Below are positions 1,332-64,000 of a stretch of DNA of 64,000 nt, piece after piece. The notes beneath the pieces are model-generated. The model did no database searches, was not told the DNA's origin, and saw nothing but the letters and a program-made list of their open reading frames with translations. Within the stretch, counting starts at the first letter, position 1; every line of letters begins with the position of its first letter. This DNA comes from a virus, in the IMG/VR virus record IMGVR_UViG_3300030419_004471, positions 149,602 to 213,601 of that record, one strand, 5' to 3'. A program made the translations under genes and the position numbers.

Positions 1332-2135
1332 TTACCAAAAAGTTTTCTCTCTATCTGAATCAGGTTCGTATGTAGTATGATGTACCACATCTGTATTATA
1401 ATCACTAGCTGATTTTGGATAAGGTTTTGTTTCGTGTTTTAATCTTTTTACCAAATCTCTCTTCTCTTTTTTACTCTGAGGTAGAATCTGAATGTATCTA
1501 TGTTTTGGTGGTTCTTCTCTTCTCCAGAACTCTTTATAACCTTGCTTACCGATTTCTTTTCTAAGGTGTTCTAAGTTACCACTACCCCATAAATTAAATA
1601 CACTTCTACTATGAATCCAATCATATGGGTCTTTACTTAATGAGATACCCCAATTAGGCATAAGAGCGATATCTGTTGATAATCCTTGATAAATCCAATT
1701 GGTAGCTTGATATATTCCTCCTAAGTGTTCTTGTCCATTATCAGCATAAGATAATAAAACTTTTATATTTTTATCATTATCTTTAATCCATTTAAATGTT
1801 TTTGCCAATGCATTAGATTCTATATTTGAACCATACCCATCATCAACATATAATCTAGTCAACTCTAAGATGTTATCTTTAGATAATCCCTCACAAACAG
1901 AAGTTGCTGCTTTTGCTCCTACTGGAAATCCATATATTGCACATCCTATTAGTTTATCTTTATTACCAAATACATCTTCTTCATCTAACTTATAGTAAAT
2001 ACCCAAAGCATATCTACACATAGTCCAAGCATGCGTATAATGCTTCTTTACTATAATATCCTTCGCTATGGATTTAGATATTTGTGCAACGTGCACTCTA
2101 CTAACATCACAATATTCTTTACCTTCTACTTTCAA
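1332..2135 (-). CDS. Mom-like DNA modification protein, copy 1
   Basis: This 267-residue protein resembles phage Mu Mom, a GNAT-related enzyme that adds a carbamoylmethyl group to adenine N6 and so blocks restriction. Shared features are the N-terminal KDIIVKKHYTH segment, the LIGCAIYGFPVG strand-turn, the LTRLYVDD..GSNIES acceptor-like region, YQATNWIYQG, and the C-terminal PKHRYI...KPYPK. It overlaps the upstream paralogue by 17 nt, so the two are co-translated. Known family: Mom and DUF-type Mom-like proteins. Inference: it modifies phage DNA. It could instead be another GNAT-fold protein. Confidence 0.7.
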   Translation of the reverse strand: MKVEGKEYCDVSRVHVAQISKSIAKDIIVKKHYTHAWTMCRYALGIYYKLDEEDVFGNKDKLIGCAIYGFPVGAKAATSVCEGLSKDNILELTRLYVDDGYGSNIESNALAKTFKWIKDNDKNIKVLLSYADNGQEHLGGIYQATNWIYQGLSTDIALMPNWGISLSKDPYDWIHSRSVFNLWGSGNLEHLRKEIGKQGYKEFWRREEPPKHRYIQILPQSKKEKRDLVKRLKHETKPYPKSASDYNTDVVHHTTYEPDSDREKTFW

Positions 2136-6136: not shown

Positions 6137-7132
6137 TTAAAATAAATCATCCCAATCTTCTCCCTCATTAGCTTTACTATAATCAGTAGGTCTAATAGCG
6201 AAAAAATCGGTATGAGTGTGTCCACCTGTCAAATGATAAAACCAATCTAAATTATCAGCTTTCTTCTTATCGAATTCAAAGATACCTTTGTATCCTAGTT
6301 CTTCTAATTTAGTATTGGTTCGTTGTTTAATAAACTCTTTTAAATCATCTGCTTTTAAATTTTCCAAATCACCCATCTCAAACATTTTATCAATAAATTT
6401 AAGTTCGAGTTCAACGATTAATTTAGCGGCTTCAGTAATACTCTTTTTACATTGTTTTAATAAGTCTGGATATTCATCACACATATGTCTGAATAATACA
6501 CATCCCATTTTAGAATGTAAAGATTCATCTCGTACTGACCATTTCATTTGCTGACCAATACCTTTGAGTTTATTTCTCATTTGAAATGAATATAGAACAG
6601 CGAATGAAGAATACAAAGAAACTCCTTCAGCAAATGCAGAAAAGATAGCTAAACTTCTACCTACTTCTTGTCTTGCTTTTTCATTTTTTTGTAAATCTTC
6701 ATGTGTCCAATCTGCAGAGGTTTCTGTGAGTAATTCAAATTTTTCCGCTACTGCTGGTTCGTGTAGAAAAGCTTCGAAGTTTTCCAATCCTAATGTTTCA
6801 TTTAGATATGAATATGCAGTTGCATGAATGGTTTCTTGTGAACCAAACATCATTGCCATTTGTCTTATCTCATGCTTAGGAAACCATTTAGTAACCATAT
6901 TAGTCCAATAATCTGAAACTGCACATTCTGTTTGTGCAAATCCCAATAGAATATTACCAACTAAGTTTTTTTCTTCCTTAGTTAAGGTTTCATTCCAATC
7001 CTTGACATCCATTTGCATGGGTATCTCGGTGTGAAGCCAAAATGCTTGTGCTTGTTTTAACCAGCCTTCATTATAATATATTGGATATTCGAATGGTTTG
7101 AACGGAATTCGTTCTTTGAATAGTTTACTCAT
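6137..7132 (-). CDS. nrdB: Ribonucleotide reductase class I, beta subunit
   Basis: A 331-residue ferritin-like radical subunit. The metal ligands are visible: E69 (FAQTECAVSDYW), E100 and H103 (SQETIH), E169 (FAEGVSLY), E203 and H206 (RDESLH). The radical tyrosine Y107 is kept four residues after H103. The first ligand is Glu where E. coli has Asp. It forms the holoenzyme with NrdA (3349-5133), although the two genes are separated by a methyltransferase and a SET protein. Confidence 0.95.
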   Translation of the reverse strand: MSKLFKERIPFKPFEYPIYYNEGWLKQAQAFWLHTEIPMQMDVKDWNETLTKEEKNLVGNILLGFAQTECAVSDYWTNMVTKWFPKHEIRQMAMMFGSQETIHATAYSYLNETLGLENFEAFLHEPAVAEKFELLTETSADWTHEDLQKNEKARQEVGRSLAIFSAFAEGVSLYSSFAVLYSFQMRNKLKGIGQQMKWSVRDESLHSKMGCVLFRHMCDEYPDLLKQCKKSITEAAKLIVELELKFIDKMFEMGDLENLKADDLKEFIKQRTNTKLEELGYKGIFEFDKKKADNLDWFYHLTGGHTHTDFFAIRPTDYSKANEGEDWDDLF

Positions 7133-7145
7133 TTTTTTATAACCT

Positions 7146-7316
7146 TTATTTGTTTTCCTCTACAGACGCTTTTCTATAATCTGTAACTAATTTTTTAATT
7201 TCACCAATAGCTTTTCTTGCTCTTGATTTAGCTGCTTTTGATGTTCCATTGTGTTCTAATTCGAATTGTGTGTACAATTCTTTAATTTGTTCGAAAAGTT
7301 CCTGTGATTTTGCCAT
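7146..7316 (-). CDS. Hc1-like histone H1 family protein
   Basis: A 56-residue basic protein starting MAKSQELFEQIKELY and containing KAAKSRARKAIGEIKKLVTDYRKASVEE. This matches the pattern of the small Hc1/histone H1-like nucleoid proteins common in Bacteroidetes (GNKAAG-type turn, RxRKA, then a KxL..(F/Y)RKxSVEA helix). The start has a clear Shine-Dalgarno AAAAGGAG nine bases upstream. It would bind and compact DNA, either host chromosome or phage DNA. It fills the gap between gp41 and nrdB and supports a Bacteroidetes host. Confidence 0.75.
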   Translation of the reverse strand: MAKSQELFEQIKELYTQFELEHNGTSKAAKSRARKAIGEIKKLVTDYRKASVEENK

Positions 7317-7344
7317 AATTTATTTCTCCTTTTAATTTAAGTTC

Positions 7345-7383
7345 GGTGAATATAACTATTGTATATATTTAAAAAAATTCACC
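7345..7383. repeat. Inverted repeat upstream of the Hc1-like gene
   Basis: GGTGAAT (7345-7351) and its exact complement ATTCACC (7377-7383) flank 25 bases of very AT-rich sequence between gp41 and the Hc1-like gene. It could be an operator, a loose hairpin in the 5' leader, or chance. No T-tract follows the second arm, so it is not a classical terminator. Confidence 0.35.
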
Positions 7384-7410
7384 AATGTTATTTATTTTTG
7401 TAACTTTTTT

Positions 7411-8772
7411 CTAAAAGTTCATACTCTCCACATATTTCTTATGTAATAATTGCTTCCTTTCTATGTTTCCACTAGCGGATTCTTTAGTAGAAAGTATCCC
7501 TTCGGCTGAAGTTCCTTCGTAAACTTCTATGAATCCTGTATTAGTATCCATCTTACAAGGGAATGTTATTCCATCAGGTCCGAATCTGTTTTTCATAATG
7601 TGAGCTCTTGCAGTATTATTCAATTTATCTTTTGATTTTCTACTCCAACTCATAATGAAATCAGCATTCATAACTTTTGCATAAGAGTCTGAAATTTTAT
7701 CTGCTTCTATAACTTCTGAATCAATTGCTGAACGATTAGTTTGAGATGCTGTCCATATTGGAATACCATATTCACCACTTAATCCTCTTAAGTCAATATA
7801 AACACCACCTTGCTCAGCGTATGTTGAATCAGTTTTATTTGAATGTGATAGTAACAAATCTGCATAATCGATTAAGATTAAATCAGGTTTATTATCTGTT
7901 GCTATCATTTTATCTATGTGTTGTGCAATCTTCTTTGAAGATACACCTTTAGGTGGGAAATATTTAATTAATAATCTTCCCTGCAATCCTTTAATTTTTT
8001 CTTTTACTTTTTCTTTATTTTCTTTAATATCAGCTGATGGTATTTTAGAAAATACAGTATCATATCTTTGTCCTACATAATGTTCTGATAATTCTAATGA
8101 ATAATGAACTACACTTAATCCTTGTTTTACTGCTGATGCTCCTAATGTAGTTAGTATCCAAGTTTTACCAACACCAGATGGTGCAACTACAACTCCCAAT
8201 TCACCTGGTCCTAATCCACCATCCATTAAATCATTCACTGGTTTCCAATCGGTTGGTACGGTATCTCTTTTTACATCATCTATACGAGAATCAAAATCAT
8301 CTTTATAGTCATGTCCTAAATCAGTCTCAATACCTACTTTCATAGCTTTATCAACCAAATCTTTTATCCTATTGTAATTACCAGCTTTTAATAAATCAAC
8401 TGATGTTAATATTACCTGTTTAAGATTTTGATTTCTACAAAACGAAGTAAACTCTTTTTTAATATAATCTAAATCTACATTACCAACTTGAGTATAAACA
8501 TGTCTAAGTTGTTCTTTAACTGTAGTTTTTAAAATTTCATTATCTAATTTAGAAACTTTTACTTTGAAAACATCCATAGTAGGAGGTTTTCTAAACTCTT
8601 CATTATAATCTATGATTTCACCAATAATCCATTTATTAGCTTCTGATTCAAAAAACTTTGGTGATACTACTTCTGAAAGTTTATCTAAGAATTTACCATC
8701 TGTAAGTAATGCTGAAACTACTTTAGATTGGAATGAATTTCCATATTTTGATAAATTATCTATCTCTTGCAT
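7411..8772 (-). CDS. 41: Replicative DNA helicase, gp41-like
   Basis: A 453-residue DnaB/gp41-family helicase. The N-terminal helical domain is followed by the RecA-like motor with Walker A APSGVGKT (about residues 197-204) and Walker B LILIDYADLL. It unwinds DNA ahead of the leading-strand polymerase gp43 and works with a primase that is not in this window. Its start overlaps the stop of the gp62-like gene, consistent with coupled replisome expression. Confidence 0.9.
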   Translation of the reverse strand: MQEIDNLSKYGNSFQSKVVSALLTDGKFLDKLSEVVSPKFFESEANKWIIGEIIDYNEEFRKPPTMDVFKVKVSKLDNEILKTTVKEQLRHVYTQVGNVDLDYIKKEFTSFCRNQNLKQVILTSVDLLKAGNYNRIKDLVDKAMKVGIETDLGHDYKDDFDSRIDDVKRDTVPTDWKPVNDLMDGGLGPGELGVVVAPSGVGKTWILTTLGASAVKQGLSVVHYSLELSEHYVGQRYDTVFSKIPSADIKENKEKVKEKIKGLQGRLLIKYFPPKGVSSKKIAQHIDKMIATDNKPDLILIDYADLLLSHSNKTDSTYAEQGGVYIDLRGLSGEYGIPIWTASQTNRSAIDSEVIEADKISDSYAKVMNADFIMSWSRKSKDKLNNTARAHIMKNRFGPDGITFPCKMDTNTGFIEVYEGTSAEGILSTKESASGNIERKQLLHKKYVESMNF

Positions 8773-9221
8773 TAAACTTTTAGTTTAAGTTTTGTTATTT
8801 GTTTCTTCTCTGTTCCGTATTTTTCGCAGATATATTTAATGTGTTCTCTGCCTTCTCTAGTAGAATAAAGTATTTCTAAATATTCATTTGCTTCTTTTTT
8901 TGAACATTCATAATCTACACAAACCAAATCTACTAACCAATCCTCATACTTTTGTGATTTTTTCCCCTTTACATATCTAAGATAATGCCTCCCCTTTGGT
9001 ATGATACCAATGTATGCTAAATATAATGCTTTCGGAGGAAGAGCTTGTGTATATGGTTGTAGTTCCGCTATTAAATCAATCCAATCTGGATTCATTGAAA
9101 GAAACCTATGAATCATATAATTTGACCAACTCTTCAAATCTTCGTCCTCTAACTTATCGAAATATTTAGGGTCTTGATATTGTGTTATCGCTTTTATGTG
9201 GTCAAATAATCCTTTAGCCAT
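8772..9221 (-). CDS. Clamp loader small subunit, gp62-like (tentative)
   Basis: A 149-residue protein with the block LKSWSNYMIHRFLSMNPDWI near the N-terminus, resembling the YxxNRxLSxxPD signature of gp62-type small clamp-loader subunits of T4-like phages. A later block, KALYLAYIGIIPKGRHYLRYVK, fits the same group. Location between gp41 and gp44 supports a role with gp44 in loading the gp45 clamp. No ATPase motif is expected or seen. Alternative: a helicase-loader or other replisome accessory protein. Confidence 0.6.
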   Translation of the reverse strand: MAKGLFDHIKAITQYQDPKYFDKLEDEDLKSWSNYMIHRFLSMNPDWIDLIAELQPYTQALPPKALYLAYIGIIPKGRHYLRYVKGKKSQKYEDWLVDLVCVDYECSKKEANEYLEILYSTREGREHIKYICEKYGTEKKQITKLKLKV

Positions 9222-9504
9222 TCTTCTTAGTGTCTATTTTTTTATCCAAGTGTTTAATCTCTTCAGGTAATAATTGCTCATTTAAAGCCCCACATTCACC
9301 ACAAAGATAAACGTCAATTGGTATCATCACATCTTGCGCTGTACCAGTAATTAAACGAGATATTGTTCTAAGCTTTACACCTGGTAAAAATACATCATAA
9401 CCACATTCAGTACATACCATTGGTTTTGATGTTTTTAAATCTATTTTAGGTTGTTGTTGAGGTGTGTTTCCTGCTCCTCCTGCAGTTCCTATAATTTTTG
9501 CCAT
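9214..9504 (-). CDS. Zinc-ribbon protein
   Basis: A 96-residue protein with two CxxC knuckles (VCTECG and LCGECG) about 34 residues apart, forming a probable zinc ribbon. It starts with a flexible Gly/Gln-rich tail and ends with a Lys-rich helix. It overlaps the gp62-like gene by eight bases and follows gp44 directly, so it belongs to the replisome operon. A role in DNA, RNA or polymerase binding is plausible; no specific function is recognised. Confidence 0.65.
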   Translation of the reverse strand: MAKIIGTAGGAGNTPQQQPKIDLKTSKPMVCTECGYDVFLPGVKLRTISRLITGTAQDVMIPIDVYLCGECGALNEQLLPEEIKHLDKKIDTKKNG

Positions 9505-9505
9505 A

Positions 9506-10456
9506 TTATTTGTTTATCGTTGATAAAATGTTTAGTATCGTAGCCATAAAGGGTATTTCCTTATCGACTGCTAAAGCATCTCTATGTTGACCTTCTGCTA
9601 ATACCAAAATTACTCCACTAACCTTACCTGAAGCATATTCATCTACCTTTTCATAGAGTACTGAATACATTTCTGTAAAATCTTGCATTTTAGAATCCGC
9701 AACCATCTGCCTTATTTTCATATATTTATTCCTACTATCATCTGATGATTTAAGAATATCTAATATTTTAGTTTTGAAATCAGAATCCATCAAATCATTT
9801 TTAGAAAGTTTTAACTCACCCTTAACAGAATTAAGTTGACAAGTATTTATTACTTTTCTTATATCAGGATATGATGAATCTATGATAGGAACTAAATCCT
9901 TTACATCATATTTTATTTCTTCGGAACTAAGTATCTTATCTAATTGTACTGCAACTTCTTTTTTAGAAGGTGGTACAATTTGGAATGTTTGACATCTACT
10001 TTGAATTGGGTCAATTATCTTCTCAACATAATTACAGGTCAAAATAAACCTACAATGTTTTGAAAATGTTTCCATAAGATTTCTTAATATAGCTTGTGCA
10101 TTTGGAGTCATATAATCAAACTCATCCAATATAACAATCTTATATTTCTTAAATCCTTGTGATGATGCAAAGTTCTTAACTTTATTTCTAACTGTATCTA
10201 CATTGTTTTCATCAGATGCATTTATAATCATATAATCACATTCAATTGATTTAACAATGAGTTTAGCCAAAGTTGTTTTACCAGTACCAGCTTTACCAAA
10301 AAGTAAAAGGTGTGGAACATCTGATGTTTCCAAATATCCTGCAACCTTTTCCTTTAGATGTTCATTACCAACATAATCATCTAATTTTACGGGTCTATAT
10401 TTCTCTACCCATAATGAATTATCTATTGTTTCTTCTGTTTGTTCGAAAAATCCCAT
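9506..10456 (-). CDS. 44: Clamp loader ATPase subunit, gp44
   Basis: A 316-residue AAA+ protein of the RFC-small/gp44 type. Walker A is GKAGTGKT (residues 54-61), Walker B LDEFD (about 110-114), and the SRC arginine-finger motif is at 153-155. The N-terminal LWVEKYRP box is typical of RFC subunits. It hydrolyses ATP to open and load the sliding clamp gp45 onto primer junctions. It is one base away from the upstream DruA-like gene. Confidence 0.95.
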   Translation of the reverse strand: MGFFEQTEETIDNSLWVEKYRPVKLDDYVGNEHLKEKVAGYLETSDVPHLLLFGKAGTGKTTLAKLIVKSIECDYMIINASDENNVDTVRNKVKNFASSQGFKKYKIVILDEFDYMTPNAQAILRNLMETFSKHCRFILTCNYVEKIIDPIQSRCQTFQIVPPSKKEVAVQLDKILSSEEIKYDVKDLVPIIDSSYPDIRKVINTCQLNSVKGELKLSKNDLMDSDFKTKILDILKSSDDSRNKYMKIRQMVADSKMQDFTEMYSVLYEKVDEYASGKVSGVILVLAEGQHRDALAVDKEIPFMATILNILSTINK

Positions 10457-10457
10457 A

Positions 10458-11678
10458 TTATCTTCCTACTTCTTTTAAATAATTGTTTTTCATTGTTTCC
10501 CAATCCATACCAATAGCATCTATATAAAATAAATGTTCTGGTTTCAATCGATTAGAATCATATAACTTTGTATATCTTTTTATGGCTTGTCTTTTCCACC
10601 ACTTATTAATGTAATCAACTCCCTCTTCAAACTTCTTTTTCATCTTTAAATCTTTTTCTTCAATTTCTGAACGAAGAAATTCTGGTCCGTTTTCATACAT
10701 CATAGCAAGATACACTCCTCTTTTGAATCCGTGATGGTAATCAGCTGCTCTGATACCACATTCTTTAAAGATTCTTCCTAAAATCTTTTGTTTAATACCA
10801 CTAACAGGTCCTTGTCGTTGAGATTCAGCTCCATACATATTAGCTCCGTTTCTTTTTCTTTCTTCTGTAATATGTTCTTTATACCAATCCTCTCTGTTTT
10901 CTTTTAACCATTGGTGCCACGGGTCATAAAATTTATCATCAGGTTTAATTGCTATCTTACCAGCAGATTCCCCTAATGTTTTAAAATGTGGAATACCATT
11001 ATATTGAGAATGAATACCATATAAAGAAGTTGTACCAACACCAATTAGAGTTTGTCCATATTTCTTTTTCCAAAAATCTCTAATTTCAGGTACAGTAGTC
11101 ATCATCGCTGTAAGTTTACCACCTAAGAAATTATATCCTAATGGTTGTGTACATACTATCGTAGAAGCGATTGTTGTATAATTTAACTTACCCTTTTTAA
11201 ACTTATCTTCTTTATTCCATCCTATGTATTTATCTCTAACACCCATCGATGTAACATCAGATGCTAAAGATATCATACCCAGCAATTTACCACTTTTCTT
11301 ATCCTTAACAAAAACTTTAACATTTCTACCAGGGTTAGCTGTCCAACTCATTGTATGAATCATCTTTCTAAGATGTGTCCATTTTGTAGCTTCTTTAGTA
11401 TCTTCTACAATTTCAACGTATGGTTCTAACTCTTCAATTTCTTTTATTGTAAGTTCTTTATCATTAATATCTGTAGGTCTCCATTGCCAATCATAATAAG
11501 ATGCTATAGCAGATTTATCTCTAATCATAGAATCTCCTTGCAACTCTACCCACTTTTTATATAAAGTTTGTTCCTCTACAGACATCTGCATAAGATAGTC
11601 CATATTCTCAATGAGCTTTTTCTTCTCATCTTCGAATACAAATTGAGGTTTAGCTGGTTCGGTATCCCAAAAACTCAT
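10458..11678 (-). CDS. DruA-like (DUF4338-like) protein, tentative
   Basis: A 406-residue protein. Its central part has the order ...LLGMISLASD...RDKYIGWN..., then GYNFLGGKLTAMM, IRDFWKKKYG, LIGVGTTSLYG, YNGIP..KTLGES.GKI. This recalls the DUF4338 family that includes DruA of the Druantia defence system; the match is from memory and needs a profile search. The N-terminus MSFWDT is nearly shared with the glycosyltransferase at 18725-19855. It is embedded between gp45 and gp44, so it may act on replicating DNA. Its biochemical activity is unknown. Confidence 0.5.
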   Translation of the reverse strand: MSFWDTEPAKPQFVFEDEKKKLIENMDYLMQMSVEEQTLYKKWVELQGDSMIRDKSAIASYYDWQWRPTDINDKELTIKEIEELEPYVEIVEDTKEATKWTHLRKMIHTMSWTANPGRNVKVFVKDKKSGKLLGMISLASDVTSMGVRDKYIGWNKEDKFKKGKLNYTTIASTIVCTQPLGYNFLGGKLTAMMTTVPEIRDFWKKKYGQTLIGVGTTSLYGIHSQYNGIPHFKTLGESAGKIAIKPDDKFYDPWHQWLKENREDWYKEHITEERKRNGANMYGAESQRQGPVSGIKQKILGRIFKECGIRAADYHHGFKRGVYLAMMYENGPEFLRSEIEEKDLKMKKKFEEGVDYINKWWKRQAIKRYTKLYDSNRLKPEHLFYIDAIGMDWETMKNNYLKEVGR

Positions 11679-54876: not shown

Positions 54877-56511
54877 TTATAAAGTATCTAAATCAGCGAT
54901 TTCAATCTTACCATAGAATTCTGGTCTTACCATCTTCTTAGCGTATCTAGTCATTACACCTCTTCTTGGTGTAAAGTTCGCTGGGTCATAAACCAACGGA
55001 GTCATTATAAGCGGTACATATGGTGCATAAACTGCTCCACTTTCAAGGAAGTTGCTACCTTTAAATCCTAATAAGATTTCGTTAGAAGTCATATAAGGGT
55101 TTTTGTAAACAGTATATCTGTTTGCAAGAGCACCTACTTGAGTTACACCAGCTGCGAATTCCATAGCGTTTGCATCAGCGTTAACTGAGAAACCTGGAAT
55201 TGATTCTAGAATAGTACAAGCATCAGGACTAGCCACGATGAAGTTTGCACCACCTCTTAGAGTCAATTGGTGAATTCTGTTTGAAACTTTGTTGATTTTA
55301 ACACCTAATGTTTGGAACCAGGTATTTCTTTGGTATGCTACAGAAGAACTTGGTGCAGTCCATCCAGTACCATCCCACTCTTTACCAATAGTTACAGACC
55401 ATTTTTCACTTGATAATGCATTAGTTTTTAACATATCTAAGATTTCTAAGTCAATCTCTAATGAGATATACTCAGATAACATAGAAGTTAATTCAGCTTC
55501 TGCATCAATTGAGTGATAAGCGTTAAGGTCTTGCGCTAATTCAGGAGTCCATACTGCTTTTAACTTTCTAGTCTTAGCAACGATTGCCTCTGATTTCAAT
55601 TCAAGATCGATTTCAGGGATATCAAGTATAGTTCCAGAAGATGCAGCTCCAGCATTCATAACTGGGTCTCTATCTTCGAAATCACCTCTGTTAGTAGAAG
55701 CAGGTACATCAGCGTAGTTAATAGTACACGCGTCGATACCAGCATCTTCTGATGCAGATACAAAGAATACATAGTTTGAACCGTCAACTTTGTTGAAGTC
55801 ACCAAGTGTTTCAACTAGCTCAGTTCCACCAGTACCAGCGTTTACAACAGTAAATGCTCTAATTGCATCGTCATCAGCATTAGATGATACGTTAGATTTA
55901 GCGATTGTAATTTTTATGACCTCATTTGCTGCAATAGATGCAGTAAAGTTTGAGTCATATCTTAAGTCAGCGTTAGATGCAGTTGCAACAGTTGTGTTAC
56001 CTGCAGATACCGCTACTGATTGGTCGTTAAGGGTATAACCATAACGTCCACTACCATATAAACCATCTTTAGCTACGTTAGTTGAACCTAAATCACTTCC
56101 GTCTCCACCGAAAATCGATGAACCAGAATATGGAGTTACGTCCGAACCACTACCAAATTGATTGTTAAAGTACTTAAAGTCTAAATAGAAGATAAGTCCT
56201 GAAGGTAAGTTCATAGGTTGAACAGAAACGAAATTCTTCGCACTGATTTCACCAAAAATTCTTCTTACCAATGGTAGAGCTACACCATTCCACTCTTCAT
56301 TACCTGAAGCGGCAGAAGTAGCGTTAGCTTCATCAAGCAATTGTTTTGCTTGGTTTTCTAAAAGAACAGCCATCTGTGATTGTTCTCTTTCTTTTAAGCC
56401 TTCAAGAAGTCCAGTTTTTTCCCATTTGTTTTTCAAACCTCTAGTTTGCTCAAGCATTACTGCTTGTGGGTTCTTTCCTTCTGTTAGCTTTGATAAATCA
56501 AAATTTGCCAT
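54877..56511 (-). CDS. 23: Major capsid protein, gp23
   Basis: A 544-residue capsid protein. The N-terminal region ending around residue 70 (LLDEANATSAASGNEEW) should be removed by the gp21 protease. The HK97-like body includes LPLVRRIFGEISAKNFVSVQPMNLPSGLIFYLDFKY, TRKLKAVWTPELAQDLNAYHSIDAEAEL and the C-terminal RRGVMTRYAKKMVRPEFYGKIEI. The leader has a strong Shine-Dalgarno (AAAGGAG, nine bases before ATG). It is followed by a terminator and preceded by the scaffold gene. Confidence 0.95.
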   Translation of the reverse strand: MANFDLSKLTEGKNPQAVMLEQTRGLKNKWEKTGLLEGLKEREQSQMAVLLENQAKQLLDEANATSAASGNEEWNGVALPLVRRIFGEISAKNFVSVQPMNLPSGLIFYLDFKYFNNQFGSGSDVTPYSGSSIFGGDGSDLGSTNVAKDGLYGSGRYGYTLNDQSVAVSAGNTTVATASNADLRYDSNFTASIAANEVIKITIAKSNVSSNADDDAIRAFTVVNAGTGGTELVETLGDFNKVDGSNYVFFVSASEDAGIDACTINYADVPASTNRGDFEDRDPVMNAGAASSGTILDIPEIDLELKSEAIVAKTRKLKAVWTPELAQDLNAYHSIDAEAELTSMLSEYISLEIDLEILDMLKTNALSSEKWSVTIGKEWDGTGWTAPSSSVAYQRNTWFQTLGVKINKVSNRIHQLTLRGGANFIVASPDACTILESIPGFSVNADANAMEFAAGVTQVGALANRYTVYKNPYMTSNEILLGFKGSNFLESGAVYAPYVPLIMTPLVYDPANFTPRRGVMTRYAKKMVRPEFYGKIEIADLDTL

Positions 56512-56532: not shown

Positions 56533-57684
56533 TTATTTAATGTTAGCTAACTTCTTAAATCTGTTAGCGATTTCGTTACCTTCAGAAATAATTTCTTTCT
56601 TAGGAGCAGTAGATTTAGTTACTGTAGATGCGATACCTTCAGTAATTTTTCTAGTCTGTCTTTTTTCTCCCGTGAATTTCATTGATTCTGCTAAAGTAGC
56701 GAATACCAATTTCACCTCTCTTACAGATTTTGTTCTGTCAAGAGTTTCAACAACTTTATGTTTTTGGTCATTGTTCATAACATATGAACGGAATAACTTA
56801 TTAGCATAAAGTAATTTTGCGTTTAGAAGGTTAACTTCATTGATAGTCTTTTTAAGTTCTTTGATAGTAGAGTATGCCTCTTCAAGTTCCTTATTAGTTT
56901 CTTCAAGTTCGTTAGATTCTTCAACTGCTTCTTCTTCAGATTCTTCTTCTTCTCCGTATCCCATTTCTCTTAGGATTTCGTCTAAGTCGATGTCATCTTC
57001 TTCTTCTTCAGTTTCAGCTTCTTCCTCAGTTGCTTCTTCTTCTGATGCTTCTTCTTCAGATTCTACTTCAGCTTCAGCTTCAGTTTCTTCTTCAGTTTCT
57101 TCATCATGCAATTCTTCAACCGAATCACCTTCCTCTTCTTCTTCACCTTCTTCTTCAGAAAGTTCAGATTCTAATTCTTTGATGATATCTTCAAGGTTAA
57201 GTTCTTCATCAACCTCTTCTTCATCATCACCATCTTCTTCAGATATTTCTTCAGATTCAGTTACTTCTTCTTCTTCGTCAGCTTCTTCATTAACTTCAGC
57301 TTCCTCAGAAACTTCTTCTTTATCTTCTGTTACGTCTGCTTCTTTTTCCTCAGAAACTTCTTCAGTTTCTTCGTTAACTTCTGCTTCTTTTTCTTCAGAT
57401 ACTTCTTCAGTTTCTTCGTTAACTTCTGCTTCTTCAGTTACTTCTTCAGTAGCTTCTTCAACTTTTTCTTCAGATACTTCTTCTGTAGACTCTTCAACTG
57501 CTTCTTCTACATCTTCTGTATCTTCATCTTCTTCTTCCATTTCTGATTGAAGTTTCTTAGATAAGATAGATTGTAGTTTTGGAGTAAATGCTTCTTCTAA
57601 TGCGATTTTTGCATTAGCGATTGCAGTTTCTCTTACAGCTTTAGCGTCAGCGATGGCTTCTTTTAATAATTTAGAATTTGCCAT
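56533..57684 (-). CDS. 22: Prohead core scaffold, gp22-like, with long acidic insert
   Basis: A 383-residue scaffold. The N-terminal 47 residues (LLKEAIADAKAVRETAIANAKIALEEAF) and C-terminal 115 residues (ELEEAYSTIKELKKTINEVNLLNAKLLYANKLFRSY... RTRKITEGIAST) match T4-like gp22. Between them, residues about 48-265 are almost only Glu, Asp, Ser, Val and Thr, including a 45-bp direct repeat (EVNEETEEVSEEKEA). The protein is longer than T4 gp22 (269 aa). The core is normally chewed to peptides by gp21; the acid load may occupy or organise head space. Confidence 0.85.
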   Translation of the reverse strand: MANSKLLKEAIADAKAVRETAIANAKIALEEAFTPKLQSILSKKLQSEMEEEDEDTEDVEEAVEESTEEVSEEKVEEATEEVTEEAEVNEETEEVSEEKEAEVNEETEEVSEEKEADVTEDKEEVSEEAEVNEEADEEEEVTESEEISEEDGDDEEEVDEELNLEDIIKELESELSEEEGEEEEEGDSVEELHDEETEEETEAEAEVESEEEASEEEATEEEAETEEEEDDIDLDEILREMGYGEEEESEEEAVEESNELEETNKELEEAYSTIKELKKTINEVNLLNAKLLYANKLFRSYVMNNDQKHKVVETLDRTKSVREVKLVFATLAESMKFTGEKRQTRKITEGIASTVTKSTAPKKEIISEGNEIANRFKKLANIK

Positions 57685-57845: not shown

Positions 57846-58115
57846 TTATTTTCGTTTTCCTTTTTTTCTTTTTTTGGTGAATAATCTGATAGTTTTATCA
57901 CCATTTTCTATTTTTTCTAACAATGCAAGTTTCTGTTGTTCTCTTACTGCTTCTTGCTTTTGTTTTCTTTTTTTAGTAGTGGGTTTGGTATATTCTTGTC
58001 TTGTTCTTACTTCGTATAGATGACCTGAATCCTCTACTCTTCTTTTAAATATTTTTAATGCTTTTTGTAAGTTCCCATTTCTCACTTGGACACTTACCAA
58101 TTTTGTTTTACTCAT
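57846..58115 (-). CDS. rpsU: Ribosomal protein bS21 homologue
   Basis: An 89-residue basic protein matching bS21: VSVQVRNGNLQKALKIFKRRVEDSG, LYEVRTRQEYTKPTTKKRKQKQEA. Cellular bS21 is about 60-70 residues; this one has a longer basic C-terminal tail (RLFTKKRKKGKRK). bS21 sits next to the 3' end of 16S rRNA on the small subunit. In Bacteroidetes it helps bury the anti-Shine-Dalgarno. The gene lies in the late head operon between head-internal proteins and gp22. A GGAG stands almost directly against its own ATG. Confidence 0.85.
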   Translation of the reverse strand: MSKTKLVSVQVRNGNLQKALKIFKRRVEDSGHLYEVRTRQEYTKPTTKKRKQKQEAVREQQKLALLEKIENGDKTIRLFTKKRKKGKRK

Positions 58116-58138: not shown

Positions 58139-58522
58139 TTATTTTATTTTCTTTAAAATAGGTTCTATATCTAATGCAATTGCATATTGGTCAAGATGTC
58201 TATATGCAATAGGTTTAAAATTTTGTTTTGTTTTCTTTGATGCGAATTCTGCTAATTGTTTAGTGATATCATCTTTTGATATACTACCTAAACTATCAAT
58301 CTTATCTAAATCTTTAGAACTTGCAGGGGGACAAGCTAAAGTTGGGCCCTCACCTGCATAATCTGGATATGCATAGTTAAATTTAAACTCTACAAGTTGA
58401 GATGGCATTTCTGCATCTTTTGCTTTTGATTGAAGTAGAACTTTTGCCTTTCCATAAAACCTTACTCCTTCGTTTAACATGTCTATGGCAGTTACGTTAA
58501 GTAAATCATTTAATTTAATCAT
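58139..58522 (-). CDS. Putative head-internal protein
   Basis: A 127-residue protein. The N-terminus MIKLNDLLNVTAIDMLNEG has the MIKLxxLL start shared by several genes of this cluster and an L-x-E/G site (after residue 18) like those cut by the T4 gp21 protease. The remainder is basic and mixed alpha/beta. The likely role is packaging in the capsid core via the N-terminal tag (inference). Coupled to the upstream gene at 58522. Confidence 0.6.
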   Translation of the reverse strand: MIKLNDLLNVTAIDMLNEGVRFYGKAKVLLQSKAKDAEMPSQLVEFKFNYAYPDYAGEGPTLACPPASSKDLDKIDSLGSISKDDITKQLAEFASKKTKQNFKPIAYRHLDQYAIALDIEPILKKIK

Positions 58523-58806
58523 TAGAATCTTTCTATTTTATCAATTTCTCTTTGGTACTTCTTTAATAATTTTTTATTTTTATTATAATCTTTTTCTAAT
58601 TTATGGATTTGGTCAGCGTATCTATCTGCAATCGGTCCACCTTGTGGTTCAGCTTCTTGCTCCATCTCTTTATATGCAAGTTTCAAATCCCTAGCAATAT
58701 CTTTCATATCAGTTTCAATATCAATTGCAGTAGTTCTAAGATTCTGTAGTTTATCAAACCTCTTCCATACATTACTTTTTTCTAATATGGTTTTTAATTT
58801 AATCAT
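58522..58806 (-). CDS. Putative head-internal coiled-coil protein
   Basis: A 94-residue, highly charged helical protein starting MIKLKTILEKSN, again with the shared tag and an I-L-E site. Two long helices follow (TTAIDIETDMKDIARDLKLAYKEMEQEA and ADQIHKLEKDYNKNKKLLKKYQREIDKI). It overlaps the upstream gene by four bases. Its position between gp21 and gp22 suggests a core protein. Confidence 0.6.
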   Translation of the reverse strand: MIKLKTILEKSNVWKRFDKLQNLRTTAIDIETDMKDIARDLKLAYKEMEQEAEPQGGPIADRYADQIHKLEKDYNKNKKLLKKYQREIDKIERF

Positions 58807-60395
58807 TTTGATACTGTTTGATATAATTTTTCTTCTGCATCTGGTATAGATTTAAACTGTCTTGGATTTATTCCAAATCCTTGAAGTGCTCTTCCTATAA
58901 ACATTTGATATTGTCTTGTACCAATTCTTCTTTCGTGCTCCGCCATCTTATCGTAAAACTTTTTCTCTTTTGGTGCATATTTGTAAATCATCTGAATAAC
59001 TTTACTTTCTTTTGTTTTAGATTCATCTATAGATTCTGCAAACCTACCAATAACCATTTTAAAAAATTTATTGTTTGGTTTACCAACTAAAGCTGTTATA
59101 AATCCTAATCTATCTTGTAGATTACCCTTCTTTACATAGTTAAAAAGTTTTTTAGCATCGATATTATGTTTTTTAATAAAATCATCAATAGCAACACCAC
59201 GAGCACCTGTAAGTTTTGCGATTCCCAATGCCTCTTTACTACCTTCATGCAATCCCGCTTTTGCAGCCTTTTGAATTGTTTTTTTGAAATCTCTTGGTTT
59301 GTGTTTAGACATTTTGATTACACCATCAATACCTTGAGGATTCATAAATATAAATTTAGAAATAACTTTTAGTTCTTTTTCGTTATATCCTTTGAAATGT
59401 TTTTCCCAATCCATTGAACCTTCGTTTACTGATTCATCTACTTTATATTTGTAGATTACATCACTTCTATCTTTTAATTTTGTTTTGTTTCTTTGTAAAT
59501 CGTAATTAGGGTTTGCAGTAGTTGCTTTTGCAAACTTACCATTCTTTAGATAGAAAGAACCGATACGAGAATTATTATCATCGGTTACATAGAATGTTGC
59601 ATTTTTCTTTTGTTTTGATAACTTAATAATATCAGTAAGATTTTTAGCTTTTACCCAATCACCATATCCTTCGTTTACTGATTCTATTTTCAGTTTAGAT
59701 GGGTCTGTTTCTAATGCTTTATAAACATCACTAACTTGTATGTATCCTTTTTTATAGAAATCAACAACTTTATAAGCTAAATCTTTTTTGTTCTTACTAA
59801 TTGATATACCTACAAATGGACTTCCATCTTTGTGCTTTCCTTTTCCATCATACCAATCTATTACATATCTTCCTCGTCTACTACCAAAATGATGTGAAAA
59901 CATTTTTGTTTTTAATGCCTTTTGATTATACTTACCACCAAATGTTGCATCTTCATGTACTGATTCGTTTTTCTTCTTACCTTTTTTACCTTTTGCTTTA
60001 TATCCACTTGCAAATGCAGCTCTTCTTTGTGCATCTGATGCAAATCCTTCGTATATTGATTTAAGATATTTAATGAATTCTTTATCATTCTTCATTCTCT
60101 TAAAATCTCTATCTGCGAAAACATTCTTTACGAAATCTCTAACATCTTTAGAATCTTTTCTGATTTGGTCTAGTGTAGAAAAATATCCTTCATATAAGGA
60201 TTCATCAATTGCTTTTGGGAATTTTGTTTTTTTAGCTAGTTGTAGAAGTTTTTTAACATCAGCTGGTTTGTTTCTATTGAACTTATCAGCGTTCTTTTTA
60301 TCTTTGAAGATGGCAGACACCATTTTGTTCCCATCACGAATCATAATGATGATTCCTTTTTTACCAAAGTATCTTTCTGTTTCTACTTTAGCCAT
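58803..60395 (-). CDS. Putative head-internal protein with many protease-like sites
   Basis: A 530-residue, very basic protein. It carries at least seven short motifs resembling gp21 cleavage sites (aliphatic-x-Glu before Gly/Asp/Ser): IDE65, LYE69, IYE116, VHE148, VNE242, VNE325, LHE384, several as ESVNEG. Between them lie small domains, some rich in Lys. This suggests a precursor cut into basic peptides inside the head. A good Shine-Dalgarno (AAAGGA) precedes the ATG. It is an interpretation; the motifs could be linker sequences. Confidence 0.6.
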   Translation of the reverse strand: MAKVETERYFGKKGIIIMIRDGNKMVSAIFKDKKNADKFNRNKPADVKKLLQLAKKTKFPKAIDESLYEGYFSTLDQIRKDSKDVRDFVKNVFADRDFKRMKNDKEFIKYLKSIYEGFASDAQRRAAFASGYKAKGKKGKKKNESVHEDATFGGKYNQKALKTKMFSHHFGSRRGRYVIDWYDGKGKHKDGSPFVGISISKNKKDLAYKVVDFYKKGYIQVSDVYKALETDPSKLKIESVNEGYGDWVKAKNLTDIIKLSKQKKNATFYVTDDNNSRIGSFYLKNGKFAKATTANPNYDLQRNKTKLKDRSDVIYKYKVDESVNEGSMDWEKHFKGYNEKELKVISKFIFMNPQGIDGVIKMSKHKPRDFKKTIQKAAKAGLHEGSKEALGIAKLTGARGVAIDDFIKKHNIDAKKLFNYVKKGNLQDRLGFITALVGKPNNKFFKMVIGRFAESIDESKTKESKVIQMIYKYAPKEKKFYDKMAEHERRIGTRQYQMFIGRALQGFGINPRQFKSIPDAEEKLYQTVSK

Positions 60396-60399
60396 TTTA

Positions 60400-60870
60400 T
60401 TATCCTTTACATCCGCCTTCGGTTACTCCTCCACATCCACAACCACAATCTCCTTTAGATTCTTTCATACTTAATCTTTCTCTCATCTCTTCTTCTGTAA
60501 TATCTCCGAGTTTGTAATATCTGGAAAGGATGTTACCCATATCTTCATATAATCCATGCATCCTTTGGTCTAAGTTCTTAGCTTCTTTAGTTACTTTTTT
60601 AAATTGAGTTTCTAATTTAGTTAGTTCACTCATATTTCTTTTTATGGTATGTCTATCAAACCAATCATCAGCTTCTCTAAGAGCAAGTTCTCTAGCTGCT
60701 TCGGTAATGGCACCCAATGTTTCAGCTATTTCAATGATATCTGATTTTCTATCAATTTGTTCTTGATACTTGTTATATGTAGATACGATTTCTAAGAAGT
60801 GTTTTTTTACTTCATTAGATAATCCTCTTTCTTCGTTTTCTTTTAATAAGTCTTTTAATTTAATAGCCAT
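60400..60870 (-). CDS. Putative head-internal coiled-coil protein with Cys-rich tail
   Basis: A 156-residue protein starting MAIKLKDLLKENEE (tag with an LKE site), then long helices (EVKKHFLEIVSTYNKYQEQI, LTKLETQFKKVTKEAKNLDQRM) and a C-terminal Cys/Gly tail (GDCGCGCGGVTEGGCKG) that may bind metal. Strong Shine-Dalgarno AAGGAG eight bases before the ATG. The Cys-Gly tail is an odd feature with no clear function. Confidence 0.62.
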   Translation of the reverse strand: MAIKLKDLLKENEERGLSNEVKKHFLEIVSTYNKYQEQIDRKSDIIEIAETLGAITEAARELALREADDWFDRHTIKRNMSELTKLETQFKKVTKEAKNLDQRMHGLYEDMGNILSRYYKLGDITEEEMRERLSMKESKGDCGCGCGGVTEGGCKG

Positions 60871-60890
60871 TGTTTTCTCTCCTTATATAA

Positions 60891-61625
60891 TTATGATGTT
60901 GTTGGTGGATTCAAAAATTCTTGAAACTTTTTAGTTAAAGCTTCAAATTCTGGGTCATTCATTCCATCAACTAAATCACCTGAATATTGTTCAATAAAAG
61001 CTGGTGTTACAAACATATAAGTATCCTTATGTATAGTTAACTCAGTACTTGTACTATGTTCTTTTATACAAGGACCTAAAGTTAATGCTTGTGAATTTTC
61101 TTTAGTATCTACAGTACATACAATTGCACTAATAACAGGCATCCCTAATAAATATTCACATACAAATATGATATTACAACATTTCTTTGAAGTATGATTC
61201 TTATCTCCTGAAATAGTTAATCCGGCTTGTCCTACTGAACTAACCATTGCTTTTGCAAATGCTAATCCTCCTGTACCTGTAGCAAGTCCAAGAACTCCTT
61301 CTAATAATTCTTTGGAGAAAGTAGCTCCCCAAGAATTAGATTTATGAGAAACATCTTCTTCATTAACATGCACAAAACAACCCGATTCATCAATTATTTT
61401 CTGTAATGCATCATAATCATAAAGAGATTTTCCTTCTTTATCCAATGCTTTTGTCATTGCGCCAAAAAATACAGATACTTCTGCAAATACATCTCTTACT
61501 TCCTTTTCTATTGTTGAATTGGTCATATCAGTAGTTGCCATCATAATATTACCTGTTTCATTAAATACGAATCCTTTTTTAACCTCTTGGTTATTTGGGT
61601 CTTGTTTTGTTATTTTGTCTGCCAT
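60891..61625 (-). CDS. Hypothetical protein with Gly-rich hydrophobic segment
   Basis: A 244-residue protein that I do not recognise. Unlike its neighbours it lacks the MIKL tag. A central segment (KELLEGVLGLATGTGGLAFAKAMVSSVGQAGLTISG) is hydrophobic and Gly/Ala-rich, followed by KKCCNIIFVCEYLLGMPVISAIVCTVDT with several Cys and a beta-rich end. It could be a membrane-interacting or oligomeric protein. Located in the head cluster, so late expression is likely. Confidence 0.6.
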   Translation of the reverse strand: MADKITKQDPNNQEVKKGFVFNETGNIMMATTDMTNSTIEKEVRDVFAEVSVFFGAMTKALDKEGKSLYDYDALQKIIDESGCFVHVNEEDVSHKSNSWGATFSKELLEGVLGLATGTGGLAFAKAMVSSVGQAGLTISGDKNHTSKKCCNIIFVCEYLLGMPVISAIVCTVDTKENSQALTLGPCIKEHSTSTELTIHKDTYMFVTPAFIEQYSGDLVDGMNDPEFEALTKKFQEFLNPPTTS

Positions 61626-61636
61626 AGTTTTTTATT

Positions 61637-62098
61637 TTATAATAATTTTAATTCTTTGTCTTTATAAGTGTCTGCATAATACCACTTTTTATCTTTTTCA
61701 TTATAAAGGTAAACAAATTCAGCACCAGACCCTTTAGAAGAATCTATGTACTTTGATATGTTATTTATCTTACCCTTTGTAAAGTATGAACCCTTTTCAC
61801 CTCTATCTCTACCATAGAATACAGTTTGACCTTTTAATTGATTATCAAACGAATGTCCTTTTCCACCATCCATCTTAGGCCCAAGTGAAGAAATACCAAC
61901 ACCTTTATCTATTTTCAAAAGTTGTTTTACCTTTCCACCTGAATAATATTTTTTTGCTGTCTTACCAACACCTGATTTATATCCATCATAATGTACATAA
62001 GTTGAAACTATATTTCCGTTTCTATCAATTAAACCAATTTGTGAACGTGTTGATTCATTAATTTGATATTCTGTTGGTATTAATTTTTTTAGTTTCAT
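61637..62098 (-). CDS. Putative head-internal protein, paralogue of next gene's C-terminus
   Basis: A 153-residue protein starting MKLKKLIPTEYQINESTRSQIG (tag with an INE site). The rest (LIDRNGNIVSTYVHYDGY ... SGAEFVYLYNEKDKKWYYADTYKDKEL) is clearly homologous to the last 130 residues of the adjacent protein at 62107-63612. Strong Shine-Dalgarno AAGGAG four bases before the ATG. Domain function unknown; the conserved WYYADTY end suggests a compact fold. Confidence 0.65.
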   Translation of the reverse strand: MKLKKLIPTEYQINESTRSQIGLIDRNGNIVSTYVHYDGYKSGVGKTAKKYYSGGKVKQLLKIDKGVGISSLGPKMDGGKGHSFDNQLKGQTVFYGRDRGEKGSYFTKGKINNISKYIDSSKGSGAEFVYLYNEKDKKWYYADTYKDKELKLL

Positions 62099-62106
62099 AT
62101 CTCTCC

Positions 62107-63612
62107 TTAAAATAATTTTTTTAATTCGTTATCTTCATAGGTATCAGCATAATACCATTTCTTATCCTTCATATTGTATAAATATACATATTCTGCTCCA
62201 CCACGGCTATCTGCACTTTTAATATATCTTGATAAAGTTTTCATATTACCTTTTATTGGCGAAGGTTTTTCATTATAGTATTCTATTGGTTTATCATCGA
62301 AGATTCCTCTTGCTCCACCTTTTTTGATTAGAGTTAAAACATCCTTTTCATTTTTCATATGTTTTTTCAAACCCTTTTTCATATTAGATGGATATCCATC
62401 AAAGTGAACATATGCTGATGCAATTTTACCACTTCTATCGATAACACCAACTTGGGAACGAGTTCCTTCTCTAAGTAAACCTTCCGGTAACATTGATTTT
62501 AGTTTTGTAGATGATTCCTTTTTAGCAGATAAAGCTTGTTTTATTCTATCTTGTAGGTCCTCAACAGCAGAATCAATTTCCATTTTTTCATTATATGTAT
62601 TTCCACCATCATCTTCTAAATCCTGCATTTCATCTTGCATAACCTCCAATGCTTTCATTTCATCAGAAATTTCTTCATACTCTTGGTCATCTATTTTTCC
62701 TTTAAGTGAAGATACAATTGATTCAAAATCTTTAGCTTTATATGCGTTATCTAAATCTTTTTTAGATTCTTCTTTCTTTTTCTCTATTTGTTTTTGGATT
62801 GCAGCTTTAAGTTTTTCACCATCGTTTGATAGTTTATCTACTACTTGTGGGCCTGATTTCTTAATTAAATTATTGATAAATTCTTGTTCTTCTTTACTTG
62901 TTATCCAAGCGAATTTTTTTTGATACCAATCATCATTATACTTATCTCCCTTTTCCCATACATCATCCGGTACTATTATTCTATTTTTATCATCTCTTGG
63001 AGCTTTTTCAGATGAATCAGATTTAGGTGTATCTCCTGCTCCACCTTTAAGTTTTTTTCCTAACTCTTTAGCGTATGCCATAGCATCTGCACTATTATCG
63101 AATGATTTATAAGTATCACCACCATCATCATCATCGTCTTTATAGAATTCAACCGAAAATTTCTTTCCACCAATCTCATCATCACCAATAAGAATATGAG
63201 CTTCTGAACCTTGTATTCCATATTCGATTGCACCAATGGAATTTATATCAACAACTGCATCTATACCTAATTCTTTATTTAGGTACAATTTAGTTTGATT
63301 AGCTGCAGCTATACTCATTTCGCCATCATCATCTTTACTTAATTTAGGAGGTTCTGATTTTCCGGCAGAAGAGTCACCTCCCTTCGCTGCCTTATCTTTT
63401 TTGAATATGTTTACTTTAGGAGTATCTGTTGGGTCTTTCTGTCCACCATCTTTATCACCTTTTCTTTTTTCGTGAGTTCCTGCTTTGATTGCAGCATCTC
63501 TTGCTGCTTTTGTTTTAAATACCGATGTCGTACCAGTCTCTTTACTTGTAGCAGTAAATACTTCTGCTTCAGTAATTGGCTGTAAATCGATAAGTCCACC
63601 TAATTTAATCAT
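62107..63612 (-). CDS. Large putative head-internal protein
   Basis: A 501-residue protein. N-terminal tag MIKLGGLIDLQPITEAE (ITE site); Lys/Asp-rich middle with acidic DDDDDGGDTYKSFDNSADAMAYAKELGKK; coiled segment around 270-350; then a second tag-like stretch TKLKSMLPEGLLREGTRSQVG followed by the C-terminal domain shared with the neighbouring 153-residue protein. The internal tag suggests fusion of two formerly separate genes or release of the domain by gp21. It is ATGA-coupled to gp21. Confidence 0.65.
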   Translation of the reverse strand: MIKLGGLIDLQPITEAEVFTATSKETGTTSVFKTKAARDAAIKAGTHEKRKGDKDGGQKDPTDTPKVNIFKKDKAAKGGDSSAGKSEPPKLSKDDDGEMSIAAANQTKLYLNKELGIDAVVDINSIGAIEYGIQGSEAHILIGDDEIGGKKFSVEFYKDDDDDGGDTYKSFDNSADAMAYAKELGKKLKGGAGDTPKSDSSEKAPRDDKNRIIVPDDVWEKGDKYNDDWYQKKFAWITSKEEQEFINNLIKKSGPQVVDKLSNDGEKLKAAIQKQIEKKKEESKKDLDNAYKAKDFESIVSSLKGKIDDQEYEEISDEMKALEVMQDEMQDLEDDGGNTYNEKMEIDSAVEDLQDRIKQALSAKKESSTKLKSMLPEGLLREGTRSQVGVIDRSGKIASAYVHFDGYPSNMKKGLKKHMKNEKDVLTLIKKGGARGIFDDKPIEYYNEKPSPIKGNMKTLSRYIKSADSRGGAEYVYLYNMKDKKWYYADTYEDNELKKLF

Positions 63613-64000
63613 TGTAATTCTGTTATTATTTCTCTTATTAAATCGTGTGCTTTACAATAGTCTCCACAAACATCAACATTATGTTGTTTAGATTCGTTTA
63701 CAGGAGTCATAAATGCACCATGCGTAGACGGGTTGGATACAAAATCCCAACCTATTAATTCAAAATCATCTCCAACAGTTACTCCACCTTCTCTTCTTTG
63801 TTCAACTGAACCCATTCCTCTTGATGAAATACCTAAAAGGATTCCTGCTTTTAACAATTCTTTAAGAATGTTACCTGATGGTGTTGGTAGGATTTCAACT
63901 GTTCCTAATAAATCATCACCATCCCAATGAATCTCTCTTATATTGTGTGATACGTTTTTTAAATTTATTACAGAAGATTCTGGATGGTCTAATTCACCAA
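63609..64000 (-). CDS. 21: Prohead core protease, gp21 (N-terminus beyond the window)
   Basis: The frame continues to the right edge without a stop. Visible blocks are GELDHPESSVINLKNVSHNI (catalytic His), IHWDGDDLLGTVEILPTPSG, ILLGISSRGMGSV (catalytic Ser) and FELIGWDFVSNPSTHGAFM, the standard order of T4 gp21-type serine proteases (herpesvirus-protease-like fold). It cleaves gp23, the scaffold and internal proteins after L/I-x-E. The start codon and N-terminal part are missing here. Confidence 0.9.
   Translation of the reverse strand, partial: GELDHPESSVINLKNVSHNIREIHWDGDDLLGTVEILPTPSGNILKELLKAGILLGISSRGMGSVEQRREGGVTVGDDFELIGWDFVSNPSTHGAFMTPVNESKQHNVDVCGDYCKAHDLIREIITELQ

Follow-up and report, generated by a model that had tools for sequence, protein, structure and literature searches.

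The role and the fast variation of the internal head proteins of phages are a long-standing question, and one gene cluster of a marine T4-like phage raises it in a specific form: why do proteins with unrelated bodies, encoded between the prohead protease gp21 and the scaffold gp22, begin with the same short MIKL or MKLK stretch? The cluster lies in a window of 64,000 nucleotides (nt), which covers positions 149602-213601 of the 213,601-bp virus record IMGVR_UViG_3300030419_004471 (a 213.6-kb genome); the other 149,601 bases of the record were examined too. Coordinates refer to the window unless they are marked as record positions, and all of the cluster genes listed in the window are on the minus strand. 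We propose, with a probability of about 75%, that the MIKL/MKLK N-termini are capsid-targeting sequences (CTS) of the T4 type that gp21 would cut, that a neighbouring protein of 530 amino acids (aa) is a polyprotein substrate of the same protease, and that the locus is a store of shuffled cassettes. The tag is probably a T4 CTS in variant form; more far-reaching is the adjacent shuffled polyprotein, which is probably also cut by gp21. The hydrophobic and basic N-terminal stretch would carry a newly made protein into the prohead core; gp21 would then cut after a hydrophobic-x-Glu (h-x-E) site, and the mature body would stay in the head. The small basic modules of the polyprotein, called beads here, are joined by h-x-E/G, A, S or D sites (a slash marks the predicted cut), and might be separated inside the prohead into individual small proteins. 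Beads would be gained, lost and reordered by recombination with breakpoints at the linkers, of which ESVNE might offer both a protease site and a short DNA homology.

Seven uncharacterised genes were found between gp21 and gp22, and five of them start with a MIKL or MKLK tag followed by an L/I-x-E site. The original prediction had described five proteins with (M)IKL or MKLK starts in this interval, with the sites LNE, ILE, LKE, INE or ITE after the tags; all five open reading frames (ORFs) were recovered there on the minus strand, and each has its named site. The tags in the window are 9 to 18 residues long, compared with 10-19 residues for a T4-type CTS. The 501-aa protein (62107..63612) begins with MIKLGGLIDLQPITE (63568..63612), followed by A, and consists of the tag, an N-terminal body, an internal h-x-E site (LLRE/G) and a C-terminal phrog_1987 bead (62110..62466), which begins GTRSQVG directly after LLRE. 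The 153-aa protein (61637..62098) carries the tag MKLKKLIPTEYQINE (62054..62098), followed by S, in front of another phrog_1987 body; the profile matched this body with E=2e-21 and the C-terminus of the 501-aa protein with E=2e-14. AlphaFold predicted a disordered tag for the 153-aa protein and a fold that starts from residue 18; a fold search with this model gave no match. The 156-aa protein (60400..60870) has the tag MAIKLKDLLKE/N (60838..60870), its orthologues begin with MKLRDILKE/S, MKLINILKE/S and MKLTQLLKE/N, and it may be a prohead core component or cargo. The 94-aa protein (58522..58806) starts with MIKLKTILE/K (58780..58806), which places Lys at P1'. The 127-aa protein (58139..58522) begins with MIKLNDLLNVTAIDMLNE (58469..58522), followed by G, and a homologous body in contig L104 begins after MIKLRDLLNE. 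A sixth MIKL gene is located on the other side of gp21 (record positions 320 to about 565); it and the 501-aa gene open with the same 30 nt but encode unrelated bodies. The five proteins had been taken as the set of packaged, and probably injected, proteins of the phage. This set was drawn too small: the MIKL gene beyond gp21, at the least, has to be added, and very probably also the 530-aa polyprotein.

The relatives compared were 80 viral contigs with a related gp23, 28 in which the 530-aa protein has relatives and 6 for the 153-aa protein. One type of tag (for example MIKLKDIISE, MIKLKKLLNE, MIKLKELLSE, MIKLKDLLTE, MAKLKDLIKE or MKLKKILSE) occurs on unrelated bodies. Among bodies homologous to those of the window, 89 of 135 contexts show [LIVM]xE exactly in front of the body start, and 112 show it no more than 3 residues away, whereas the background, defined as [LIVM]xE at any position of the same proteins, is 2.7%. 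A free and untagged phrog_1987 homologue in phage P-SSM2 begins MGTRSRIG, that is, with the residue that the predicted cut would expose (compare INE/STRSQIG and LLRE/GTRSQVG). Moreover, the relatives have a conserved QLLDE/A-like site in gp23 and an N-terminal LLKE/A in gp22, which are of the same type as the sites in the tags. It is therefore well supported at the sequence level that the tags behave as a T4-type CTS cut by gp21 would predict: one tag is shared by unrelated bodies, body starts fall at the site, and the sites of gp23 and gp22 match. This part of the original prediction stands to that extent.

It is possible, if unlikely, that the tagged proteins are instead parts of the prohead core or scaffold, like T4 gp67 and gp68, which would be cut in maturation and not delivered to the host. 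Their genes sit between the protease and the scaffold, and homologues of the 156-aa protein are found in most relatives, distant ones included. However, most of the bodies differ between close relatives and swap freely, unlike structural core genes, and the comparable tagged protein of a cyanophage is an enzyme detected in virions. A report on cyanophage S-SCSM1 states that nicotinamide mononucleotide (NMN) adenylyltransferase was detected by mass spectrometry of the virion, and that such enzymes are also present in virions of other cyanophages (PMC9602691). The S-SCSM1 enzyme begins with the CTS-like MKSFLQFLKE/A, and a 69-aa DUF3008 protein is annotated as a virion protein in the S-SCSM1 record. 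Relatives of both proteins occur in the present phage; whereas neither an ESVNE polyprotein nor a MIKL tag was seen in S-SCSM1. By analogy, these data support packaging of proteins of this sort, but not of those encoded in the window itself.

The 530-aa ORF (58803..60395) has no N-terminal MIKL tag and is split by h-x-E sites into eight beads. Bead 1 (residues 1-69; 60189..60395) ends with AIDE/SLYE/G, bead 2 (70-116; 60048..60188) with SIYE/G, bead 3 (117-148; 59952..60047) with SVHE/D, bead 4 (149-242; 59670..59951) with SVNE/G, bead 5 (243-325; 59421..59669) with SVNE/G, bead 6 (326-384; 59244..59420) with GLHE/G, and bead 7 (385-458; 59022..59243) with SIDE/S; bead 8 (459-530; 58806..59021) is C-terminal. 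The beads are 32-94 aa in size, and the net charge of every bead is +3 to +9. The ORF contains nine h-x-E/[GASDN] sites, compared with 1.6 in shuffled sequences. Relatives align to the protein piecewise. Of the 65 distinct ends of these homologies, 23 are no more than 2 residues away from a site, where 8.8% would be expected (p=3e-9); control motifs hx[DKNS], with D, K, N or S replacing E, showed no excess. This boundary test used the 530-aa query alone, because the statistics of high-scoring segment pair ends over all 52 polyproteins were diluted by multi-bead alignments. The polyproteins tested contain no Pfam family and few PHROGs, none of assigned function.

In relatives, the corresponding ORFs are chains of up to ~15 modules linked by ESVNE or similar sequences. 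The motif S[VI]NE occurs 96 times in 52 such ORFs, compared with 0.84 times in shuffled sequences, and the next residue is A, G or S in 68 cases. The order of the beads is variable. For example, 12 proteins contain the bead 1 family, with 7 different neighbours on the left and 10 on the right, and 10 proteins contain the bead 7 family, with 9 on each side; one bead family is always C-terminal. The gene order 156-aa gene, polyprotein, S21, gp22 and gp23 is kept in relatives whose gp23 is ~60-82% identical, and their bead sets differ; about 20 relatives with the same gene order carry different module sets at the polyprotein locus.

The best sequence argument that the protease of the tags would also cut the internal sites is that one and the same bead may follow either a tag or a linker site. 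One bead of 50 aa (GPSTEEKRIAML...) occurs in three contigs as a free tagged protein, behind MIKLKDILNEEPINE, MIKLKDIIEQKKVLEELGLNE and MKLVDLVPLKEEPVNE; in six others it is the last bead of longer proteins, for example after DESVNE or DVINE. The phrog_1987 body is likewise found both tagged and free and in fusions, in more than a dozen contexts, and some of the fusions hold a complete tag fossilised inside (NSMKLKDLLSEKLINE/GTRSQ).

The linkers are also conserved as DNA. The commonest linker is the 15-nt sequence GAATCAGTAAAYGAA, which encodes ESVNE, and 53 of the 82 ES[VI]NE cases are written as GAATCAGTAAA[CT]GAA. Val is encoded by GTA in 68 of 69 linkers and Ser by TCA in 57 of 69, well above codon usage, although these are counts and not probabilities because related contigs are not independent. 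Between close relatives, the DNA breakpoints are mostly within ~12 nt of linkers. For example, contigs L095 and L104 match at 96% identity over a 400-nt stretch that ends 1 nt beyond a linker; different beads follow in the two, and similarity resumes 6 nt from the start of the next linker. Since DNA similarity stops and resumes at linkers, the linker is probably a short recombination seam besides a putative protease site. As a separate observation, among the matches listed from 2.9 million viral contigs, the 16-nt sequence GAATCAGTAAAYGAAG is in frame as ESVNE at 107 of 119 loci (contigs L134-L252); it almost always flags an in-frame ESVNE linker and might be used as a DNA probe for such polyproteins.

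A seam of this kind leads to a second and less probable alternative, in which the tags are true CTS and the 530-aa protein is a mosaic that stays whole, with its h-x-E linkers as uncut hinges and recombination seams. A pure DNA seam predicts both the conservation of the linker codons beyond codon usage and the position of the breakpoints on the linker, and the missing tag of the 530-aa ORF also suits an uncut protein. However, most of its junctions (AIDE, SLYE, SIYE, SVHE, GLHE and SIDE) differ from ESVNE but still have h-x-E in front of a small or acidic residue; a seam in the DNA alone would not need this. Moreover, the same beads also follow an h-x-E site where they are free tagged proteins.

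The original prediction had suggested a search for the tag in the rest of the genome. The pattern used was M, 0-3 residues, K/R, a hydrophobic residue, two residues, two hydrophobic residues, and then [LI]xE within 25 residues. Of the 14 genes in the gp20-gp22 interval, 6 have it, compared with 4 of the 259 genes in the rest of the genome (Fisher p=1.0e-6); this p-value is indicative, since the pattern was set after the tags had been seen. The relatives provide the independent test: within 8 kb upstream of gp23, 40 of 429 genes have the pattern, compared with 18 of 590 downstream (p=2e-5; odds about threefold). The reading in which the MIKL start only reflects A/T-rich start regions or signals for translation, with h-x-E sites by chance, is refuted in the main. 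The codons ATGATTAAATTA are A/T-rich, and [LI]xE alone is weak evidence because it occurs in residues 4-22 of 20% of background genes; but MIKL opens 0 of 246 background genes of the same genome outside the interval, and body starts fall at the site far more often than the background predicts.

Besides this late choice of the pattern, several findings speak against the proposed CTS and polyprotein. The ILE/K site of the 94-aa protein is poor, the weakest of the tag sites. The bodies of the 501-aa and 156-aa proteins are net acidic, unlike T4 internal proteins. The start of bead 4, the least certain boundary, is not at a site in relatives. The 530-aa ORF and its closest relatives start with MAKVETER and have no canonical tag that would take them into the prohead; other polyproteins (contigs L096, L112, L117 and L118) do begin with a CTS-like helix plus a site. 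The AlphaFold model of the 530-aa protein is of low confidence (pLDDT 46); its input was a six-row full-length alignment, used because MAFFT stacked unrelated beads when mosaic fragments served as rows, and a PDB search with so poor a model was meaningless. Finally, packaging and cleavage are deduced from sequence, both in this phage and in the others with ESVNE polyproteins.

Comparison with known systems showed both similarities and differences. The T4 proteins IPI, IPII, IPIII and Alt bear capsid-targeting sequences, and the rules of the CTS have been reviewed (PMC9026906). Processing is lost when Glu10 of the T4 CTS is changed to Asp, and the function of IPII and IPIII is still unexplained (PMC9026906). 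T4 and the present phage share a short N-terminal propeptide with hydrophobic-x-Glu for a gp21-type protease, small proteins, and diverse bodies behind one tag; moreover, the beads are small and basic, as are T4 internal proteins. IPII and IPIII begin with MKTYQEFIAE/A and IPI with ...STITE/A, which may be compared with MIKLKDLLKE and ...PITE/A in this phage. The pattern (basic, a hydrophobic pair, x-Glu) is alike by eye in sequences too short for a homology test. The tag sequence itself is different. In T4 the genes are separate, with one cut in each protein; whereas here they cluster around gp21 and the beads are joined in a predicted cleavable polyprotein.

Head proteins of SPN3US and the phiKZ type are similar in that a single protein has several A-x-E (S/A-x-E) sites at which the prohead protease cuts (PMC10052503). 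In those phages, the additional cuts break up a propeptide that is lost from the head; whereas the cuts predicted here would part bodies that also exist free, in an array of shuffled modules. The polyvalent proteins described by Iyer et al. 2017 (PMC5512222) are also multidomain proteins with shuffled domains, are proposed to be packaged and injected, and some are proteolytically processed. However, their domains are large and mostly enzymatic, often with a peptidase of their own; whereas the beads here have 32-94 aa, belong to no known families and have a site of the prohead-protease type at every junction. A scan of 84,980 bacterial and archaeal species genomes gave no relatives of the 530-aa protein. 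Among the cultured phages searched, none matched the 530-aa protein and none with an ESVNE polyprotein was found. The open-access full texts searched describe no polyprotein of a prohead protease whose modules are shuffled.

We lean towards the wider view that the head cargo of a lineage of tailed DNA phages is a combinatorial polyprotein, in which the linker would be both cut site and recombination seam, so that relatives would re-deal their packaged, and probably injected, proteins by exchange of beads. Capsid targeting by a recognisable tag would then reach beyond T4. Metagenomes could be screened for this tag, and the virion cargo of phages with no cultured host could be listed from sequence. 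If the 530-aa protein is indeed cut, a tailed phage would have a cleavable polyprotein for its cargo, and one 15-nt linker serving protease and recombination would be a simple mechanism of rapid exchange. Dozens of bead families with known genomic contexts, whose functions might bear on the role of internal head proteins, become testable.

The genes around the cargo set are those of a T4-like head. The C-terminal part of gp21, an S77 prohead protease (63609..63998), matched PF03420 (E=2.5e-19) and phrog_207, head maturation protease (E=2e-36). ORF calling on the rest of the record revealed the N-terminal part (MKNLLIETRLFEGRVNEDSSGR...) at record positions 3-152. The record is thus cut inside gp21, with the two gene parts at opposite ends (window position 63998 and record position 1), and the genome is therefore circular or permuted. 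The gp23 major capsid protein (54877..56511) is certain from its PF07068 match (E=1e-76), and contains the conserved candidate maturation site QLLDE/A. The acidic scaffold (56533..57684) is assigned as gp22-like by its position and its acidity and composition, with no family match; it has LLKE/A near the N-terminus and IISE/G near the C-terminus and would be a substrate of the same protease. Internal h-x-E matches in gp22 and in the 156-aa protein were rejected as cut sites, because these proteins are Glu-rich and no homology boundary was seen there. Three genes of the interval have no tag: the 530-aa gene, an untagged 244-aa protein (60891..61625) that matched no family and was left out of the cargo set, and a homologue of ribosomal protein S21 (57846..58115; PF01165, E=8e-15), a neighbour outside the cargo set. 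The S21 gene is retained between the polyprotein and gp22 in most relatives. Weak Pfam and PHROG matches (tape measure, DUF445 and coiled-coil families) were below the cut-offs and were discarded.

Several other genes were noted. A second polyprotein-like ORF of 416 aa is located far from gp21 (record positions 126330-127580, minus strand), with DUF3008 as its first module and then modules with ESVNE sites. A 1202-aa protein (record positions 6960-10568, minus strand) has a possible tag MSKLSNYLVDQILLEE, followed by S, and contains a cytidylyltransferase-like domain (PF01467) and an HD domain (PF01966); by analogy with the enzymes in cyanophage virions, it is a candidate for a packaged enzyme of nicotinamide adenine dinucleotide metabolism. 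The huge phage LR756508 (contig L013, 20793-26672) has tandem paralogous proteins behind gp23 with MRLKEILLE or MKFKELLKE tags and a recurring YRG[TS] motif. This array perhaps encodes packaged effectors; an Alt-like ADP-ribosyltransferase identity, considered from YRG[TS] in the MRLKEILLE-tagged genes, found no Pfam match and is not claimed. Finally, two adjacent ORFs on the minus strand of the window (1332-2135 and 2119-2880) are paralogous (SKSIAKDIIVKKHYTHAWT and SKSVAKDIIVKNHYSHLWT).

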